IMG/VR virus record: IMGVR_UViG_3300048839_001360
Coordinates: 1 to 38,457 of that record
From: a virus
Length of the DNA: 38,457 nt
Reading direction: 5' to 3' (one strand)
Part shown: positions 2,339 through 33,851 of the stretch, in pieces
Position numbering within the stretch: position 1 is the first letter of the stretch
Layout: each line of letters starts with the position of its first letter
The notes under the pieces: generated by a model
What the model was told of the DNA's origin: nothing
Databases searched by the model: none
Seen by the model: the letters and a program-made list of their open reading frames with translations, nothing else
Made by a program: the position numbers and the translations under genes

Positions 2339-3901
2339 TTACCAAGTACCGCCGTCAAGGGTTGAAACGTTGGTGAGAATTGTTCCGTTTTCCGACGGAA
2401 GTTCTATGTCGTAGTTTGCGGTAAGATTTGTTGCGTCCGACATGACTCGAATATAGTGTGACTTGTCTTCGTCATAGAATTTAACGGCTCCGCGAGAGCT
2501 GTTTCCGCCATAAGCCTGAAAGTCCTTGGCACGATGATCTGCCAGGATGCTTCCGGTATAGCTCATCGTTTCCAGGACGCCGCTGTTGTTTTTTAATGAT
2601 GGCCCGCTATTCCCTGAGTCGATCTGAAATGATGTTCCAGTGGTGCCAGTGTCGGTATTCTGAGAATGCAACCGGGCATCGTTGCCTTGGCAAAATTGCC
2701 CAGAGCCGGTTCCAAATGTTGGGGTTAGCGCTCCGGAAGAAAAACTGAATGCCGTGGCGTCGATGTTGACTTGGACTTTCTGTGGGCTTGATGCGTCGAA
2801 TTTCAGGCCGGCGGCAGTGTCGATGAGGGTGTCGACCAGTATGTTGCCAGTTATGTTTGGAAGCGTGTGGGTGCGATTTGCTGTCATCGTGCCAACGGTC
2901 AGGTCGCTGTAATACGTCCCGTCGGCGCGATAGATATAAACGTTTCCCGCATTCGAAATCCCATCGCCATATGCCCTGAGGTCCTTGATACCAATGGAAG
3001 CATTGTTTAGGCCATCACTGGCTGTTATGCGGACCCCGTTTACATCCTTGCCCAGTATTGGACCGTTACCGTCGGAGTCAATCTGAAACGATGGTGCGGT
3101 AGTGCCGGTGTCTGTGTTCTGGGAGTGTAACCGGCTGTCGTTGCCCTGGCAAAATTGTCCGGAACTGGTCCCGAATGTCGGCGTCAAAACGCCGGATGAA
3201 AAAGAGAATGCCGTGGCGTTAGCGCTGACGGCAATAGAATCAGTAGCGACGGTGATACCGTTACCGGCGCCAACGTCAATGGTGTCACCGGTCTTGGTCA
3301 GGCCGGCGCCGGCTGTAATCTGGCCGGACCCTGAAAACTGAACGAACGTGACCGTCGTGGACCCGAGAGTGCCGCCTGCGTTGACCGTGCAGAGCCAGCC
3401 GGTGTCGCCGGACGCCGTGCCCTGCTCAACCCAGGTATAGAGCGACACCAGTTCGTCCCAGGAGTCTGCGTCCGCTGCCCGTGCCCATGTGGACGCCGCG
3501 ACCACATAGATCCCGTTGTTGGCCGTTGTGGTCTGGTTTTTCACAAGGACTCGATCGCCTACGGATACTGCAACTCCATCGATCGTTTGTGTGCCGGAGA
3601 GCGTAATGTTCTCCGTGGTGGCGACCTTGACGCTGGCCTTGGCATCGATGCCCTGGATCAAATTGTCGACGTATTGTTTGGTGGCAGGATGCATGTCGCT
3701 GGACGGATCTGCATGCAACGTTAAAAATCCGGTTAGCGTCGACCCGGCAAGCTTTACGAAATCCGCTTCGCCGACAAGTTTGTTGGCGCTGCCTTGGCCG
3801 ACATAAAGCCGGAAAGTGTCAGTAGTCCATCCGGGCTCGCCGTCGTTTAGCGTCGGGATGCCGGAAGCCGTGCCGCGTTTGAATTTGATTACATTTGACA
3901 T
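2339..3901 (-). CDS. Tail fibre protein with internal duplication
   Basis: 520 aa after a strong AAAGGAG site. It opens with the fibre attachment motif (IKFKRGTASGIPTLNDGEP, then WTTDTFRLYVG), followed by a HPATKQYVD segment at about residues 71-79 that is typical of phage collar and fibre proteins. Residues about 93-195 form a domain with NITLSGTQTIDG, NNGIYVV and ADADSWDEL that is also present in the neighbouring fibre gene at 3914-4738. Two copies of a module beginning ATAFSFSSG and containing FCQGND-RLHSQNTDTGTT follow, at about residues 229-275 and 382-428. The protein ends STLDGGTW, echoing the LVDGGSWD end of the upstream fibre gene. It is probably a trimeric shaft with repeated beta elements. 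Confidence 0.8.
   Translation of the reverse strand: MSNVIKFKRGTASGIPTLNDGEPGWTTDTFRLYVGQGSANKLVGEADFVKLAGSTLTGFLTLHADPSSDMHPATKQYVDNLIQGIDAKASVKVATTENITLSGTQTIDGVAVSVGDRVLVKNQTTTANNGIYVVAASTWARAADADSWDELVSLYTWVEQGTASGDTGWLCTVNAGGTLGSTTVTFVQFSGSGQITAGAGLTKTGDTIDVGAGNGITVATDSIAVSANATAFSFSSGVLTPTFGTSSGQFCQGNDSRLHSQNTDTGTTAPSFQIDSDGNGPILGKDVNGVRITASDGLNNASIGIKDLRAYGDGISNAGNVYIYRADGTYYSDLTVGTMTANRTHTLPNITGNILVDTLIDTAAGLKFDASSPQKVQVNIDATAFSFSSGALTPTFGTGSGQFCQGNDARLHSQNTDTGTTGTSFQIDSGNSGPSLKNNSGVLETMSYTGSILADHRAKDFQAYGGNSSRGAVKFYDEDKSHYIRVMSDATNLTANYDIELPSENGTILTNVSTLDGGTW
2622..2760 (-). repeat. Direct repeat copy 2 inside tail fibre gene
   Basis: About 139 bp, clearly similar to 3081-3219 in the same orientation. 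Both encode ATAFSFSSG, then FCQGND-RLHSQNTDTGTT. The divergence includes many third-position changes, so this is an old duplication kept in frame rather than a recent slip. Confidence 0.8.
3081..3219 (-). repeat. Direct repeat copy 1 inside tail fibre gene
   Basis: Partner of the repeat at 2622-2760. The spacing between copies is 459 bp (153 codons), so the fibre carries two similar shaft modules in frame. Confidence 0.8.
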
Positions 3902-23193: not shown

Positions 23194-23700
23194 TTAGCCT
23201 TCCTGGCCGACCAGCTTGAGCAGGCCGCTGACAACCGCGTCTTCGTCGTTCTCGGCGCGTCCCGAATACCCGCCGCCGGCGACGGAGCTGGTCGAGCCTT
23301 CCACCGACCATTCCTGGACCTCCCCCTCGACGGCGGCCTTGAAAGCCTCGGCGTCGAACTCGCCGCTTTCGGCGCTGCAGAACTTTTCCGGGTCGACATA
23401 GGCCCGAATCTTGCCGTGCAGGTGAACGGGAACGGTGCTCTTGGCCAGCAGCTCGGAGAAGATCCCGTCGGCGACAGCCTTCATGGCGGCCTTGCGCTCA
23501 CGCTCCTCGCGGATGGCGTCCTTGCGCTCCAGGTCCTTGACCTTGGTGGCCAGATCGGCGTTGGCCTGGTTGGCCTGATCGACCTGGCGCTGCATTTCGG
23601 TCTTCTGGCCGTTGAATTCCGCTTCGGCCTTGGCGTAGCCTTCTCCCATGGCGGCGGCGTAGACATCGGGGTGTTTTTCTTTAAGCTCGTTCAAATCCAT
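23194..23700 (-). CDS. Nested in-frame scaffold protein (lambda Nu3-like arrangement)
   Basis: The internal ATG at 23700 (Met269 of the protease ORF, MDLNELKEKHPDVYAA) is preceded by AAGGAGGAAATCGCC, one of the strongest Shine-Dalgarno sites in the window. This strongly suggests independent initiation of a 168-aa protein in the same frame. It is highly charged and helical (EMQRQVDQANQANADLATK, VKDLERKDAIREERERKAA) and ends SGLLKLVGQEG. The lambda C/Nu3 pair is organised the same way: the short product builds the procapsid core and the long one supplies protease. Initiation is inferred from the sequence. Confidence 0.75.
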   Translation of the reverse strand: MDLNELKEKHPDVYAAAMGEGYAKAEAEFNGQKTEMQRQVDQANQANADLATKVKDLERKDAIREERERKAAMKAVADGIFSELLAKSTVPVHLHGKIRAYVDPEKFCSAESGEFDAEAFKAAVEGEVQEWSVEGSTSSVAGGGYSGRAENDEDAVVSGLLKLVGQEG

Positions 23701-24504
23701 GGCGATTTCCTCCTTTTCGATGATGTAAGAAATGAAAGCGGATAGATCGGTTTCGATGCGGTCGATCATGCCGGCGGCCACGGCGGGCTCGGCCAAAAAG
23801 ATTTTGCCGTCGGCCATCTTGAGAACGGCTTCGGTCGACATCCCGCGTCCCCGGGCCACGGTGTCGACAAAGATCGAGTAGGTCTGGTCCAGCCGCTCCT
23901 GGATGTAGTCCCTGGCCTCATCGGAAAGAGGCTCGGAATCGTTGCCCGCCGAGAGATAGGTGACCTTGACACCCATTTTCTCGTCGAACCCACTCCAGTC
24001 GACGTGCACCGAAATCACGCCGATGCTCCCGACGTAGGCCGTGCGGGGAGCCGCGATCTCCTTGGCCGAGCATGAAATCATCAGGGCGGCGCTGGTCATC
24101 TGCCCGTTGGCAAAGGCGTAAAGCGGCTTGACCCGGGCGGCAGCGTGCATGAAGTCGGCCAGCTCAAGAGCGCCGTCAACGGTCCCGCCGGGCGAATCAA
24201 TGTCCAGCAGAACGGCCCTGGCCGACCTGTCCTGAAGAGCCGCCTGCATCGTTTGGCGAAGCCCTTCGTAGGTGGACTCCCCGTAGAAGGCCGACCAGAA
24301 GTCCTCCTCCTTGACCAGGGCGCCGCGAATCTTCACCACCGCCACGCCATCGCGGACTTCGTAGCCGTGACGGCCGCCGGCCCCGTCGATGCGCGACAAG
24401 AGATTGTCTCCGGGCAGTTGGGCCATCATGGCGTCAAGGGCGTCCGGGGTGATCGCCCAGGCCGGCCGGCAAAACCTTTCGATCAGTCCTTTGGCTATCG
24501 GCAT
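23194..24504 (-). CDS. S49 (SppA/ClpP-like) head maturation protease fused to scaffold
   Basis: 436 aa. Residues about 50-250 form an S49 peptidase: AVVKIRGALV, AVLLDIDSPGGTVDGALELAD (about 98-117), FANGQMTSAALMIS with the candidate nucleophile Ser138, VGSIGVISVH, and AVARG-type DTVARGRGMS, LAEPAVAAGMIDRI. The usual SGKHK-type segment expected to hold the catalytic Lys reads SAGNDSEPLS, so the Lys is not evident. Residues 269-436 are a charged helical scaffold region. It should cleave scaffold and head proteins during maturation. The long form makes protease-scaffold; the short form is listed separately. Confidence 0.85.
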   Translation of the reverse strand: MPIAKGLIERFCRPAWAITPDALDAMMAQLPGDNLLSRIDGAGGRHGYEVRDGVAVVKIRGALVKEEDFWSAFYGESTYEGLRQTMQAALQDRSARAVLLDIDSPGGTVDGALELADFMHAAARVKPLYAFANGQMTSAALMISCSAKEIAAPRTAYVGSIGVISVHVDWSGFDEKMGVKVTYLSAGNDSEPLSDEARDYIQERLDQTYSIFVDTVARGRGMSTEAVLKMADGKIFLAEPAVAAGMIDRIETDLSAFISYIIEKEEIAMDLNELKEKHPDVYAAAMGEGYAKAEAEFNGQKTEMQRQVDQANQANADLATKVKDLERKDAIREERERKAAMKAVADGIFSELLAKSTVPVHLHGKIRAYVDPEKFCSAESGEFDAEAFKAAVEGEVQEWSVEGSTSSVAGGGYSGRAENDEDAVVSGLLKLVGQEG

Positions 24505-24628: not shown

Positions 24629-26233
24629 CTATTCCTCGCCCTGCTTGCCCTTTTCTCCCTCGACCACTTCCTGGATCTTTTCGTCATCCTGGGTGTAGAG
24701 CAGCTTCGGGAACAGCTTGTCTTCGGTCGCCTTCTGCAGCCGCTGGCGCCCGTAGCCGCCAATGCCCATTCTCCTGGCCACGCTTTTCTTCGAAACGCCG
24801 AGGGTTTCCGTGACGGGACCGTGTTTGGTTCCCATCAACCCCTTGGCGCGCGACTCGTAGTCGATGCTCTCCGATGTGGGGTAGTCGACCTCGACCAACT
24901 GCTCGGGCCGCTTGAGCACCTTGCCGAAAACCGGCTCCTGGTTCTTGAACCCGACCGCCTCTTCCACCTCGTAACGGGGCCGCATAAACCCCATGGCCGC
25001 CTTGAGAAAGAAGATGCTGCCCCAAAAATCGTAGCGCCACCACCGGTCGAAGTAGGCGATCTCGTCCGACGTCCGGTCGCTCATCGGCCCCCGGCTGGCC
25101 CTGATCCCGCCATAGGTGCCCTTTGCCGTCCCGGTCATCGTGTCCCGCGGCTCGTTCATGCCGCTGGCCGCCATCTCGAGAATATCGGTGTCCGTGTCAC
25201 TGATCTTCGGGAGCTGGGGGCTCACGGCCTTCACCGCGATTCCCGGCGGAACAAACAGCCTGGCACCCGGCACAATGGTCGACATCATGCCGGTGGATTT
25301 TCTCTGGTCGTCAGTCAACGAGGCCCACAGCTTGAACGCTTTGGGATCCTCGAAGGTAAACACCCAGGCATACGCCCCGGAAGACTTCTTGTGGTCGATC
25401 TCGTACTTCTTGAGCTGCTCGTAATGGTTCAGCCACTCGATGGTCGTGCGCAGGTAGCTGACCGCCCGGCGCGTGATCAGCCCCTTGTCCCACGAAACCA
25501 CAAATCGCTGGTATCCGCCGATCTGGCGAAAGCGCGGAAGGGCCACCCGCCGCTGTTTGGACTCGTCGTAGCTCGTGTGGCCGGCAACGTCCTCGACCAC
25601 CCGCGGGTCGCGCGCCACGAAAATGCTCGGGATCTGCTCGACAACGCTGTTTCCGCTAATGTCCGATACGTTGTAAAAAACCGGCAGGGTGTCTTTCTTG
25701 GGGTGAAAGATGATGCCCGAGTCGTCATCCCCGCCCGCGCTGATCCGCAGCGGATCGAGAAAGTCGACCTCGATGAACCCGTCATAGTGGGCCGTAAGGA
25801 TCAGAAACAGCTCGCCCTCGGTATTGGCGCGGGTGATGAACTTGGGAACGAAGGAATAAAGCCGGTTGCGCCAGTCCAGGTCGATCTCCTCGATAGCGGC
25901 CTGGATTTCCGGCACCATCGAGGACGTCTCGAAGCCCCACCCTGCGATGCGGCCGGTAATGCCGCGAACGCTGGTGTTGACCTGTGGGTTGCGCTGGAAC
26001 ATCCGCCAGCATTCCCGCTGGGAACGCTCGCGGCTCCAGCTGTCGATTTCCTTGCCGGATGCGTAGGAAAGGGGAAACCCGTCCGCGTCGGTGTCAAAGC
26101 TGCGATCGACGGTAGTAGAGGCCGGCTGCCACGGCATAACCATCTGGACGTTTTTGAGCTGCTCATCGCTCAACTCCAAAAGGCCCGCCAAGGCCTGCTC
26201 ACCCGTCCGATTTTCAGCCGCAACGTCCGCCAT
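24629..26233 (-). CDS. Portal protein
   Basis: 534 aa. Landmarks in order: WMPQP-like VMPWQPASTTVDR, SRERSQRECWRMFQRNPQVN (about residues 66-86), RGITGRIAGWGFETSS, FITRANTEGELFLILTAHYD (about 131-150), VDFLDPLRISAG, HPKKDTLPVFYN, SWDKGLITRRAVSYLRTT, TGTAKGTYGGIRASRGPMSD near residue 370. Such segments, with the position after TerL and before the S49 protease, mark the dodecameric portal through which DNA is packaged. The start has only GAAGAG upstream. It follows the promoter at 26305-26333. Confidence 0.8.
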   Translation of the reverse strand: MADVAAENRTGEQALAGLLELSDEQLKNVQMVMPWQPASTTVDRSFDTDADGFPLSYASGKEIDSWSRERSQRECWRMFQRNPQVNTSVRGITGRIAGWGFETSSMVPEIQAAIEEIDLDWRNRLYSFVPKFITRANTEGELFLILTAHYDGFIEVDFLDPLRISAGGDDDSGIIFHPKKDTLPVFYNVSDISGNSVVEQIPSIFVARDPRVVEDVAGHTSYDESKQRRVALPRFRQIGGYQRFVVSWDKGLITRRAVSYLRTTIEWLNHYEQLKKYEIDHKKSSGAYAWVFTFEDPKAFKLWASLTDDQRKSTGMMSTIVPGARLFVPPGIAVKAVSPQLPKISDTDTDILEMAASGMNEPRDTMTGTAKGTYGGIRASRGPMSDRTSDEIAYFDRWWRYDFWGSIFFLKAAMGFMRPRYEVEEAVGFKNQEPVFGKVLKRPEQLVEVDYPTSESIDYESRAKGLMGTKHGPVTETLGVSKKSVARRMGIGGYGRQRLQKATEDKLFPKLLYTQDDEKIQEVVEGEKGKQGEE

Positions 26234-26779: not shown

Positions 26780-29037
26780 CTCAACCCTCCGTAGTCTCCC
26801 AACAGCCCGGCCGGATACTGCATGGCGCCCCAAAACATGCTCCGGCCCCTGGGGTTGAAGTCGAAAACCGTCTTGAACCGTCCGCCGTAGATCGCGCTGG
26901 CCACCGAATAGACCGCGTCGTCCTGTACGCCGAACCGATTCTTCTTTTCGGGCGACCCGAACCATTTCCGCTCGTCGTCGTGATCGAACTTGGTCAACTC
27001 TTCGTAAAAAATGTTGTCCGTCTTGGACCCCGGGATGTTTACCGTCGGCGCCTTGAACCGGCCGTTGTCGACCAGGATGTAAAATTCGCCGAACATTGCG
27101 CGCTGGATGTTGTATGTCGGCTGCCAGGCCTCAAGAGCGATCCCCTCTTCGTCGGCCCACGGCTTCAGGTCCCACATCCCCCATCGCTCGCACCCGATTG
27201 CGTCGATTCCGCCGTACTCTGACGCCGCTTCGCCCAAAACGCCCTTGATACTCTCCAAGGAGTGGTCCGCGATAACCCCCAGGCAGACCAAAAAGTAGAC
27301 GTAGGCCAGGCCCATGGCCTCTTTCTTGGCATCCTGCGACTGCGTTGCCCTGATTCCGCGGCTGGCCGACCCCGCAAGCCCCTTGGCAACCGCCGTCAGC
27401 ACCGTTCTGGCCCCCGTCCGGCCGGTTTTCATCGGGTCGGCGCGGTCCACCGACGCCAAAATCGCCCAATCCGTGTCAAACAGCTCGCCCAGGGCCTCCA
27501 GGGCTCCGGATGTGGCCGCCACCACGCCGCTCGACTGCGGCTCCAGCGCGTAAACCATGTCTACCGGCCACAATCGGCGGTCAAAATCGTTGGCGCCGAC
27601 GCTGCGCCAGTCCATATCCATGCCCTCGGCGGTCAATTTATCCACCTGATCGACAATGTGGTTGCGCTGGGACAGGATTTCGATCAATTCGAGGTGGGTT
27701 TCGCAACTTCCGTCGATCCCCATGTACCCGATGGCGTCCACCTGCTCCCGGGTGAACACCGCCTCGGTGCCGGCCGACCACAAATTCTGAAAATACCGCT
27801 CGAAACCGCCCAGAATGAACTTCGTGCGGTACGAATTAAGCTGCCGCTGGCTCTGTTCAGGGTGCCAAAAGTCCCGATAATCGCCCATTTTGCTGTAGCG
27901 GTAGTCGAAAAAAAGGGTTTCGTCCTCTCCTTTCTGGTAGGACTTGTAAAGCCGATACAGGATGTGGTCCTTCGGCGACACGGTGGAGTCGATGACGCCA
28001 AAAGCGTTGGGGATGTTTCGGATCGAGCCGTCGACCTGCTGAAAGAATTCGTGGTCCTTGAGCTGAAACAACTCCGAAAAGGCGTAGCCCGTGATGTTCG
28101 ACACGATGCCGGTAAAGTTCGACATCGAGCGCATGAAGGAAACCGTGTTCCCGTTGCGGTCGGTGATCTTGAGTTCCTTTTCCTGAATGTTCTTCATGCC
28201 CACCAGGCGCAACAGCTTGGGCGAATGCTCTATCGTCTTGCGGATGATTCCGTACTGGACGAACTTTGTCTGGTCTTTGCTGTTGGCGCAGAGCATGATC
28301 TCCTGGTTCGGCCAACAAAAAAACTTCCACATCTGGATGTAGCAGACCACATAGGTCTTGCCCTCGCCGCGGGGCCAGCACAAAACGATCAACCGGTGCT
28401 TGAACTTGCCCCCCTCCATGACCAAGGCCCGCCGCACAACCTCTTTTTGCTTCTCCCACATCTCCTTGTACGACCGCCCGGTGTCCGGATCGGGCGTGTC
28501 CGGCAGGCTTGAAAGCGGGGTCCAGACAGGGATGACGCTGCCCGGCAGAATCACCCGAATGCAAATGTGCTCCTCGGCCCACAGGATGAACCCCTCGGCC
28601 CCGTCCCGATACCGGGCGTACCGGGCGGCGCGCTCCCTGGCCGTTTCGGGCCGGTCCTCCGGCCGCTGGCGATCGGGCACCACCACCCGAATGTACGACG
28701 CCACCCGCCCCCTGAACGGTCTTTGCGTCGGCGCGGCGGAGGCCGGATCGTAAAAGAAGCCGCCGGCAAAAAGCGCCACGCGGATCTCCTTCATCTCCGT
28801 ATCGTTCAGCCACACCAGGGCGTCGCACGGCGGCAGCCCCCGGCCCCGGTGCCTCACCCGGCGCGGCGAATGCTCGATCTTGAGCCTGACCAGCGCGTCG
28901 ATGACCTGCCCGGTGGTGACCGGGTCGCTCGTGCCGACCGCCTGGACCGCTTCCTCCACCGACACATCGGCCAGCATCGCCAGGCAGACGGCGCCGGACC
29001 AGACGTCGGTGCGTCGAACAAGGGTGATGTCCATCAT
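26776..29037 (-). CDS. Terminase large subunit with N-terminal papain-like domain
   Basis: 753 aa; the start shares TGATG with the TerS stop. Residues about 1-105 (TDVWSGAVCLAMLADVSVEE, TTGQVIDALVRLKIE, DALVWLND, ALFAGGFFYDPASAAP) look like a C39/papain-like fold with its active Cys replaced. The terminase ATPase follows: Walker A WPRGEGKT (about 221-228), NITGYAFSELFQ in the Walker B region, and the coupling motif VIDSTVS. The C-terminal RNase H-like nuclease has LASVDRADP, IGCERWGMWDLKP and FGVQDDAVYSVASAI. It translocates DNA into the head and cuts concatemers. At 753 aa it is longer than usual because of the extra domain. Confidence 0.85.
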   Translation of the reverse strand: MMDITLVRRTDVWSGAVCLAMLADVSVEEAVQAVGTSDPVTTGQVIDALVRLKIEHSPRRVRHRGRGLPPCDALVWLNDTEMKEIRVALFAGGFFYDPASAAPTQRPFRGRVASYIRVVVPDRQRPEDRPETARERAARYARYRDGAEGFILWAEEHICIRVILPGSVIPVWTPLSSLPDTPDPDTGRSYKEMWEKQKEVVRRALVMEGGKFKHRLIVLCWPRGEGKTYVVCYIQMWKFFCWPNQEIMLCANSKDQTKFVQYGIIRKTIEHSPKLLRLVGMKNIQEKELKITDRNGNTVSFMRSMSNFTGIVSNITGYAFSELFQLKDHEFFQQVDGSIRNIPNAFGVIDSTVSPKDHILYRLYKSYQKGEDETLFFDYRYSKMGDYRDFWHPEQSQRQLNSYRTKFILGGFERYFQNLWSAGTEAVFTREQVDAIGYMGIDGSCETHLELIEILSQRNHIVDQVDKLTAEGMDMDWRSVGANDFDRRLWPVDMVYALEPQSSGVVAATSGALEALGELFDTDWAILASVDRADPMKTGRTGARTVLTAVAKGLAGSASRGIRATQSQDAKKEAMGLAYVYFLVCLGVIADHSLESIKGVLGEAASEYGGIDAIGCERWGMWDLKPWADEEGIALEAWQPTYNIQRAMFGEFYILVDNGRFKAPTVNIPGSKTDNIFYEELTKFDHDDERKWFGSPEKKNRFGVQDDAVYSVASAIYGGRFKTVFDFNPRGRSMFWGAMQYPAGLLGDYGGLR

Positions 29038-29612
29038 CAGTCGACCCCGATAATGGCGTCGAGGTGGCCCGGGTCGCCATAGGTCATGTTAAAAGCCTCG
29101 TCGTCCTCCCTGTCGCCGGTCGGCTCGGGCTTCGGAGGCCCACCCGACAAAACGTCCATCAGACCGGCCTGCTCCGCAAGGTTCAGGATGCCGGCCGACC
29201 TCATGAGGCTCATGATCGTGACGGACGTTTCCCGAATCTCCTTGAACAGCGGGTTGACCTTCTTCTGGCCGGTCTTTTGGGCAACCTCGATCAGCTCGTC
29301 GTCGCTCATCGCCATCTGCCGCTTGTGCAAAATGATCAGGTGGCGAAACAGCGGCATGATCTGCGTCCCGATGATCTGCGCCAGCAGCTTGCTCGGCACC
29401 CGGTCAAGAAGCTCGACGTATGGATGGAAGGCCGCCTTGATCCATTTTTGCTCCAGGGTGCAATACCCCCTGTGTTCGTAGGAGCACATCTTGGAAATCG
29501 GGCAATCGTCGCCCGTGCAGGGCGATGCGGTGTCCAGCGAAAAGATGCCGACACCCTTGATATGCCCCTTCTGGATGCCGAACTTGCCGACGTCAGATTC
29601 TCTGAGAGCCAT
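29037..29612 (-). CDS. Terminase small subunit candidate with cysteine cluster
   Basis: 191 aa, seven bases after the preceding gene. Near the N-terminus, cysteines at about 32, 37, 43 and 51 (SPCTGDDCPISKMC, GYC) form a C-x4-C-x5-C-x7-C cluster that could bind zinc. The middle is helical (LAQIIGTQIMPLFRHLIIL, LFKEIRETSVTIMSLMRSA), as in oligomeric terminase small subunits. It directly precedes and is coupled to TerL. The Shine-Dalgarno (GGGGAG) is about 12 bases upstream of the ATG. The TerS assignment comes mostly from position; DNA recognition is not shown by a known motif. Confidence 0.6.
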   Translation of the reverse strand: MALRESDVGKFGIQKGHIKGVGIFSLDTASPCTGDDCPISKMCSYEHRGYCTLEQKWIKAAFHPYVELLDRVPSKLLAQIIGTQIMPLFRHLIILHKRQMAMSDDELIEVAQKTGQKKVNPLFKEIRETSVTIMSLMRSAGILNLAEQAGLMDVLSGGPPKPEPTGDREDDEAFNMTYGDPGHLDAIIGVD

Positions 29613-32484: not shown

Positions 32485-32682
32485 CTACAGGACAACCGAC
32501 ACCCATCGAACAAACGTATCCACCTTACAGGTGTATTCCTGGCCGACCAGCCCCGGGCCCCGGCCATTCTTTTCCAGGATCTTGTAGGTCACCACGTTGT
32601 TAGAAACGCGCAGCACGTTTCGCCTGTCGCCGCGCTTGTTCTTGTAAGTTCTGCCCGCCTGTAACTGGCTGTGCTTGATCAT
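32485..32682 (-). CDS. Small phage protein with a basic beta-like core
   Basis: 65 aa from an ATG at 32682 after AAGGACAAGGACG. It reads IKHSQLQAGRTYKNKRGDRR, NVLRVSNNVVTYKILEKNG and CKVDTFVRWVSVVL. The layout (LQAGRTYKNKRGDRRNVL, strand, aromatic end) is common in small uncharacterised phage proteins. It overlaps the previous gene by 83 bp, which is unusual, so the earlier gene's C-terminus is suspect. Role unknown. Confidence 0.55.
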   Translation of the reverse strand: MIKHSQLQAGRTYKNKRGDRRNVLRVSNNVVTYKILEKNGRGPGLVGQEYTCKVDTFVRWVSVVL

Positions 32683-32791
32683 CGTCCTTGTCCTTTCTGG
32701 TAATAATCTGGGCTTCGTTGTCAACATACACCAAGGCATTGCCACTTCGCCCATAGTGGATTTTTACTGTGTGCCCGTTAATCGTTTCCAT
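32600..32791 (-). CDS. Small hydrophilic phage protein
   Basis: 63 aa from an ATG at 32791 with GGGAGGTGCC directly upstream. It reads ETINGHTVKIHYGRSGNALV, YVDNEAQIITRKDKDDDQ, then TGGQNLQEQARRQAKRAARF. The first 40 residues are convincing. The last part runs through the start of the next gene in another frame (83-bp overlap). A one-base indel near 32690 would end the protein at an ATGA junction. The true C-terminus is uncertain. Confidence 0.55.
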   Translation of the reverse strand: METINGHTVKIHYGRSGNALVYVDNEAQIITRKDKDDDQAQPVTGGQNLQEQARRQAKRAARF

Positions 32792-32840
32792 GGCACCTCC
32801 CATTCTTTGTTCGGCAAAAGCGCCCTGATAAACGCCGCGG

Positions 32841-33851
32841 CTACTTGCGGAACGATGCATTGCCGGCACCACGCAGTAAGCCCACTCTGCCGGGTAGCCC
32901 ATGAGCCAAAGGGAAAAGAGAGGGTTCAATTTCAAGCCGCTGTTGGGCATCGCTACCTGTGGTGTCGTCCACCCTGCCAGGCACCCGCCGCCATTTGCCA
33001 TCGGCGCAGGGGATGAGGACGGAATCACGCCAGAAATTGCCTTGACTTGCGCCCTCAGCCTGCACCCACTCGTTTGGCCCTCGTTCACATATTTCATGTA
33101 GTCCGTCAGGCTTCCCGCCCTGCCGCCATCCTCTACGCTCGGCGTTTGCCACCCCGCCATCTGGGCCGCCGCTTGCAGATCCCCGCCGCCCGATGCCGTC
33201 CTGCCCAACTCCTGCTTTCTCTCCGACGATTCCGCCCCGCCGGTTATTGTTCGCGGCGTCGGCCATCCCGCCATCTGGGCCTGCATCGTCAAGTGTGGGT
33301 TCCCCGACGAATCCCTTGCATTCGGGCCACCGTGGTCTGAGTCCGTCGCGTTTGGAGTCCGCCACCCAGAACAATCTTGACCGGATGTGCGGCGCCCCGA
33401 CGCTCGCAGCGCACAGATCGGCGGCCCCGACGGCATATCCCATCGCCTCCAGGTCAAGGCGTACTCCGGCGAGCCATTCGCGTCCAAGGCTTGACGCAAC
33501 CTGCTCTCCAAAAACCGCTGGAGGTCGGCACTCGCAGATGAGCCGGGCGAACTCCGGCCACAGATGCCTCTCGTCCTCAGCGCCTTTTCCAGCCCCGGCC
33601 ACCGAAAGGGGTTGACATGGGCATGATCCGGTCCAAACGGGCCTATCTGCTCCCCAACCTGCAAGCGTGAGCGCATGGGGCCAGCCGCCAATACCTGCGA
33701 AAAAGTGGCATTGCGTGTATCCGTCGAGGTCGCTCGGTCTGACATCGGATATGCTCCTGTCGTCCACGTCGCCGGGCGGCAAGAGCCCGGCTTGAATCAG
33801 GCCCCTCAACCACTTGGCGGCGAACGGCTCGTTGTCGTTGTAGTAGTTCAT
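32841..33851 (-). CDS. C5-cytosine DNA methyltransferase (frameshifted in the last motif)
   Basis: 336 aa as read. Motif I HFFAGIGG (about residues 49-56), motif IV GSCPCQPLS with catalytic Cys79, motif VI FGEQV (114-118) and motif VIII HIRSRLFWVAD (155-165) identify a Dcm-type enzyme that methylates cytosine at C5. It protects phage DNA from restriction or marks it. A variable region at about 165-300 holds the target recognition. The C-terminus reads GLLRGAGNASFRK and stops. A +1 reading at this point gives GNAIVPQVAAAFIRALLP, the expected motif X. A single missing base near 32863-32866 explains this. The enzyme may be inactive, or the base may be a sequence error. Confidence 0.85.
   Translation of the reverse strand: MNYYNDNEPFAAKWLRGLIQAGLLPPGDVDDRSISDVRPSDLDGYTQCHFFAGIGGWPHALTLAGWGADRPVWTGSCPCQPLSVAGAGKGAEDERHLWPEFARLICECRPPAVFGEQVASSLGREWLAGVRLDLEAMGYAVGAADLCAASVGAPHIRSRLFWVADSKRDGLRPRWPECKGFVGEPTLDDAGPDGGMADAANNNRRGGIVGEKAGVGQDGIGRRGSASGGPDGGVANAERRGWRQGGKPDGLHEICERGPNEWVQAEGASQGNFWRDSVLIPCADGKWRRVPGRVDDTTGSDAQQRLEIEPSLFPLAHGLPGRVGLLRGAGNASFRK

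Follow-up and report, generated by a model that had tools for sequence, protein, structure and literature searches.

To our knowledge, the large terminase subunit (TerL) is among the most conserved of phage proteins, and accessory domains of the sort described here are usually absent from it. The TerL of an uncultured tailed phage, encoded in an IMG/VR virus record of 38,457 nucleotides (the whole stretch analysed here, referred to as the window), carries an N-terminal extension ahead of its motor core, which raises the questions of what this extension is, whether it is translated as part of the packaging motor and what it could be doing there. An initial annotation, made from the letters of the sequence, had read it as a C39/papain-like domain without its nucleophile and histidine and had offered several binding roles for it. 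As a whole, that interpretation is partly supported by the analysis that follows.

The terminase gene and its surroundings

The gene product combines a Walker A ATPase with the acidic residues of an RNase H-like nuclease, and genes for a putative small terminase subunit (TerS), a portal-like protein, a protease and a capsid protein adjoin it (Table 1), as is expected of a large terminase subunit. Residues from about 185 to 430 match PHROG TerL profiles (terminase large subunit, E 6.9e-14 over residues 192-430), and the Walker A motif G224-K227 (in which K227 is the lysine), D531 and D706/D707 are invariant across 50 TerLs of the family. A full-length AlphaFold model, for which 50 family members served as input, has a mean pLDDT of 83 and places the ATPase and nuclease architecture in residues ~133-753. 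When searched with Foldseek, it matches the solved TerLs of HK97 (1e-12), T4 (gp17), D6E and Sf6. The solved chains matched are 400-550 residues long, compared with 753 here, and we know of no C39-like domain in the TerLs of HK97, T4 (gp17), D6E or Sf6 (gp2). The family is common in metagenomes, with >100 distinct members. A tblastn search with the full window TerL against 50,697 phage records gave no match at E 0.01, and the TerL of one relative matched only distant Streptomyces phage terminases (23%).

Cysteine-rich proteins like the TerS-like protein of the window also sit upstream of TerL in relatives. In this family, the TerS-like protein has a four-cysteine motif, C-x3-6-C-x4-6-C-...-C, for example in loci L004, L005, L009, L017 and L052, which is possibly a metal or Fe-S site. 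The strict pattern is present at 26 of 66 TerS-like loci; the window protein has the cysteines but fails the strict pattern. Elsewhere in the window, two long ORFs on the minus strand, at 32600-33745 and 32841-33851, overlap in different frames, and each is matched by a DNA methyltransferase PHROG (7e-29 for the first and 1e-68 for the second). The overlap is explained by dual coding, by a frameshift or by out-of-frame predictions among the sequences behind the PHROG. Two tail-fibre-like proteins, also on the minus strand, each begin with a domain resembling Mtd_N, the N-terminal domain of the major tropism determinant; the match is at 9e-4, below the cut-off, for 787-1932 and at 2.2e-8 for 2339-3901.

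Table 1. Features of the terminase locus, in window coordinates
Feature	Position	Strand	Evidence
TerL with N-terminal C39-like extension, 753 aa	26776..29037	-	ORF, PHROG match, full-length model, invariant residues
Predicted catalytically dead C39-peptidase-like domain, TerL residues 1-120	28678..29037	-	AlphaFold, Foldseek, hhalign
Ser14, column of the catalytic Cys	28996..28998	-	Alignments
Arg86, column of the catalytic His	28780..28782	-	Alignments
Asp97 of FYDP, retained third-triad residue	28747..28749	-	Alignment
Probable flexible linker, residues 121-132, C39-like domain to TerL core	28642..28677	-	Full-length model
Putative terminase small subunit, cysteine-rich motif	29037..29612	-	Position; weak PHROG 'terminase small subunit' match, E 0.29
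Portal-like gene	24629-26233		Weak match, E 0.008
Head protease	23194-24504		
Major head protein	21136-22359		

Fold and active-site residues of the N-terminal domain

The motifs from which a C39/papain-like domain had been proposed at 28720-29037 (residues 1-106 of TerL) are present as described: D11-V-W-S14-G15 precedes CLAML, followed by VSVEEAV, GQVIDALVRL and FFYDPA. An extent of about residues 1-120 is better supported. An AlphaFold model of the domain, built from two sequences, is of modest confidence (pLDDT 64, pTM 0.63), and it has in common with the full-length model the layout H-H-H-E-E-E-E-E, with predicted helices at residues 14-22, 27-34 and 42-51 and predicted strands at 56-59, 73-79, 84-91, 94-96 and 111-118. 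The elements of the C39 fold, an N-terminal helix bearing the nucleophile position, two more helices and an antiparallel sheet, are all found in the predicted structure. Between this domain and the core, the full-length model has a pLDDT of <50 at residues 122-128, and a helix starts at 133.

Comparison of the modelled N-terminus with solved structures had been suggested in the initial annotation, for which a lack of C39 or papain folds among the matches would have been telling; C39 folds were matched. Most of the top 26 ranks in a Foldseek search of the PDB with the domain model were C39 peptidase domains, the matches being to PCAT1 (4ry2; E 0.005, probability 1.00), ComA (5xe8 and 5xe9) and LahT (6mpz), with HlyB also listed, and the C39 domain of PCAT1 was matched again by the separate full-length model (E 0.016, probability 1.00). 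None of the PDB matches of the domain model had an E-value of <0.001, so the fold call leans on the consistency of the matches and on sequence. Among viral models, the best Foldseek match (E 9.5e-7) was to a protein with a C39 domain from Bacillus phage vB_BcoS-136.

Profile comparison also supports the assignment. In hhalign, a two-sequence profile of the domain matched the 143-residue vB_BcoS-136 protein (equated with the BFVD match by its length, the first 50 kb of the record being covered) at E 3e-9 over 93 almost gapless columns. In a run over 138 targets, the highest scores went to this protein, to an ORF of MT835593 (2e-7) and, weakly, to the Erwinia and Vibrio phage proteins (about 0.004), and the best clearly unrelated or shuffled decoy reached 0.03. 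The vB_BcoS-136 protein was scored twice among these targets, the second entry apparently being an alternative start, and a 177-residue ORF at rank 5, which shares its loci with the Erwinia and Vibrio proteins, is probably an alternative start of one of them. Searches of Pfam and PHROG with the domain gave no significant match, and Pfam gave no C39 family (PF03412 or other) even at E 10; the intact phage relative P0001 is likewise without a Pfam C39 match. Sequence searches of the PDB returned nothing useful. Two chance-level matches, RabGGT_insert in Pfam (0.06) and phrog_22701 (0.13), were discarded as identities for the domain, as were sub-threshold tblastn matches inside large proteins of Erwinia phages. 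At the level of predicted structure and profile similarity, the identity of TerL residues 1-120 as a C39-peptidase-like (papain-like) domain is confirmed.

The active site, by contrast with that of the intact relatives, has been dismantled. The catalytic columns hold Cys, His and Asp in the four stand-alone phage proteins aligned (vB_BcoS-136 gene 59, assigned to phrog_4049; the MT835593 ORF; Erwinia phage pEa_SNUABM_5 gene 208; and Vibrio phage phiVC8 p37), whereas they read Ser14, Arg86 and Asp97 in the window and Gln, Arg and Asp in the TerL of a second viral contig, L002, whose domain contains no Cys residue at all. The oxyanion Gln, found a few residues before the Cys in three of the four stand-alone proteins, is replaced by Arg or Pro in the fusions. 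Thus, Cys, His and oxyanion Gln of an active C39 peptidase are all missing, and the Asp/Asn of the third position is present, Asp97 being shared by all six proteins of the alignment. The original claim that nucleophile and His are lost is therefore confirmed, but the position it gave for the His is wrong: DALVWLND (residues 72-79) had been equated with the HWVV strand, and the alignments place the His column one strand further on, at Arg86 in IRVALF. MAFFT places the His one or two residues off in the distant Erwinia and Vibrio proteins, and the Arg86 call comes mainly from P0001 and MT835593.

Distribution of the domain and competing explanations

Two of the 109 distinct TerLs of the family, those of the window and L002, carry the C39-like domain, and these two form one clade (support 100/100). 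The 109 were drawn from two IMG/VR scans (best 80 loci each) and one genome-collection match, and 106 of them have a complete upstream frame. A search for other TerLs with the extension, as the initial annotation had advised, thus yielded one more among the best 80 loci per scan; viral-contig scans aimed at the domain itself found no carrier other than L002, and a viral-contig scan with the Bacillus phage relative as query gave no match. No separate copy of the domain was detected in the records of relatives, many of them fragments (34 records with the domain profile, 51 with phrog_4049), or in six-frame scans of the fetched loci. A long open frame upstream of TerL in L046 has no match to the domain, and the small ORFs before terL in the sister TerLs L009 and L020, considered as candidate copies, do not match it either. 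Small unrelated ORFs do lie between terS and terL in relatives (L020, 4814-5017; L009, 4727-4993; L005, 5681-6007), and genes inserted here may therefore be tolerated.

The reading preferred here, to which a probability of about one half is assigned, is that the domain descends from a C39-like phage gene that joined terL, and that it has since lost catalysis and serves as a non-catalytic docking module. It starts from what is established for the domain, namely its fold (by prediction), the loss of residues, the continuity of its frame, its rarity and moderate purifying selection. A small C39-like phage gene located between terS and terL would have become fused in frame to terL, and the fused domain would subsequently have lost its Cys and His while keeping the papain-like fold. 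Such a domain, translated within TerL through coupling to terS and connected with the motor core through a short, flexible stretch, could bind an extended peptide, whether from TerS, the portal or prohead, or a host factor, and tether it to the motor. Binding of a substrate, a ubiquitin-like tag or TerS, as put forward in the initial annotation, likewise has the standing of a proposal.

An alternative to this docking module is that the C39-like frame lies outside the mature protein, either because TerL is made from an internal start or because the domain is removed by proteolysis. The other TerLs of the family start no more than a few dozen residues from the conserved core, mostly in the region equivalent to residues ~121-155. 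Uniformly later-starting homologues, with the segment absent from the expressed protein, had been named as evidence against the domain. This does not apply cleanly: 107 of the 109 related TerLs lack the segment, but it is open, in frame and constrained in two divergent contigs. An internal start at the family's usual position is unsupported, as there is no ATG, GTG or TTG from residue 121 to at least residue 155 of the window TerL, nor from residue 115 to residue 155 of L002. Further upstream, codon 87 of the window TerL (28777-28779, minus strand) is a GTG behind AAGGAG, and the matching codon 88 of L002 is an ATG. These internal codons are probably due to chance, and translation from codon 87 would in any case retain the last strands of the domain. 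Moreover, the upstream frame is coupled to terS, whose TGA stop overlaps the TerL ATG (TGATG, in the context GAC TGATG ATG); the equivalent junction in L002 is TAG-CG-TTG. This arrangement, together with the open and constrained frame, bears out the earlier view that the domain is probably translated as part of TerL, and makes an internal start, or removal by proteolysis, very improbable. It is hardly credible that the domain remains an enzyme, with Ser14 as a changed nucleophile or with some other catalytic arrangement. The Ser in the Cys column of the window and the retained Asp97 would allow it, but the Gln of the Cys-free L002 domain, the Arg in the His column of both carriers and the loss of the oxyanion Gln all speak against activity.

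The main rival to a docking role holds that the segment is what is left of a small gene that became fused and is now in decay, tolerated but functionless, and it is considered unlikely without being far-fetched. Between the window and L002, the domain shares 44% protein identity and has a dN/dS of ~0.32, compared with 0.08 for residues 143-753, a ratio that is rough because synonymous sites are near saturation (dS ~1.6); the domain's rate of evolution is roughly four times that of the rest of TerL. Constraint is weak around the lost nucleophile, where identity falls to 18% (residues 1-12) and 39% (residues 12-42), and decay would also suit the loss of catalysis and the presence of the domain in so few TerLs. 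Nevertheless, residues 43-76 and 86-98 are the most constrained; they keep ~60% identity and have the lowest dN/dS values of the domain (0.26 and 0.20, respectively). Despite the near-saturated synonymous sites, neither lineage has lost the reading frame over these ~120 codons, and both proteins retain the fold core despite lost catalysis. The third-position excess in the domain is modest (p 0.03). The domain is under moderate purifying selection. Its rarity and fast evolution would fit an arms race, in which the accreted domain conceals or remodels the surface of TerL that Avs-type host sensors recognise and serves counter-defence, not packaging. Avs3 binds phage TerL, and the full-length model also matches a structure of Avs3 bound to the terminase of phage PhiV-1 (PDB 8dgc), but the placement of the domain relative to the ATPase is blurred in that model by the low-confidence linker, and a shielding role of this kind is judged improbable.

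Implications and relation to known systems

If the docking-module reading is correct, the principle of the C39-like domain (CLD), so far known from secretion ATPases, has been transferred to a genome-packaging ATPase, and TerL would be able to gain a peptide-docking module in parallel to the CLD of ABC exporters. More tentatively, the dead protease may have become a stable part of the packaging motor that captures a peptide partner (the TerS tail, the prohead or a host factor) or masks TerL from sensors. Residues 1-125 provide a construct for asking what contacts the motor at initiation, or how TerL evades host sensing.

The C39 domains of PCAT1, ComA and LahT, which rank highest among the PDB matches of the domain model, are active Cys-His-Asp proteases that cut double-glycine leaders; unlike them, the TerL domain is without Cys, His and oxyanion Gln. 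The stand-alone phage proteins are similar to it in length and order of elements, and have the AML and DP motifs in common, but differ in their intact Cys/His/Asp and in being unfused to TerL. A functional parallel is the CLD of HlyB, which is without the catalytic Cys, yet recruits and tethers unfolded substrate (PMC6363468, PMC8277102), and which keeps His83, stacked on a conserved Trp (PMC8277102). Like this CLD and those of related type 1 secretion ABC transporters, the TerL domain is a predicted C39 fold with a replaced Cys, N-terminal to an ATP-driven motor, and no proteolysis is expected of it. However, it is fused to a phage terminase instead of an exporter ABC ATPase and has also lost the His, so that the Trp-His stacking of the CLD cannot exist there; because of these two differences, it is not assigned here to the HlyB CLD group. 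No terminase-C39 fusion was found in the open-access papers or collections searched. ABC exporters already provide examples of the fold, of its dead form and of its placement N-terminal to a motor; the fusion to a terminase would be the new part.
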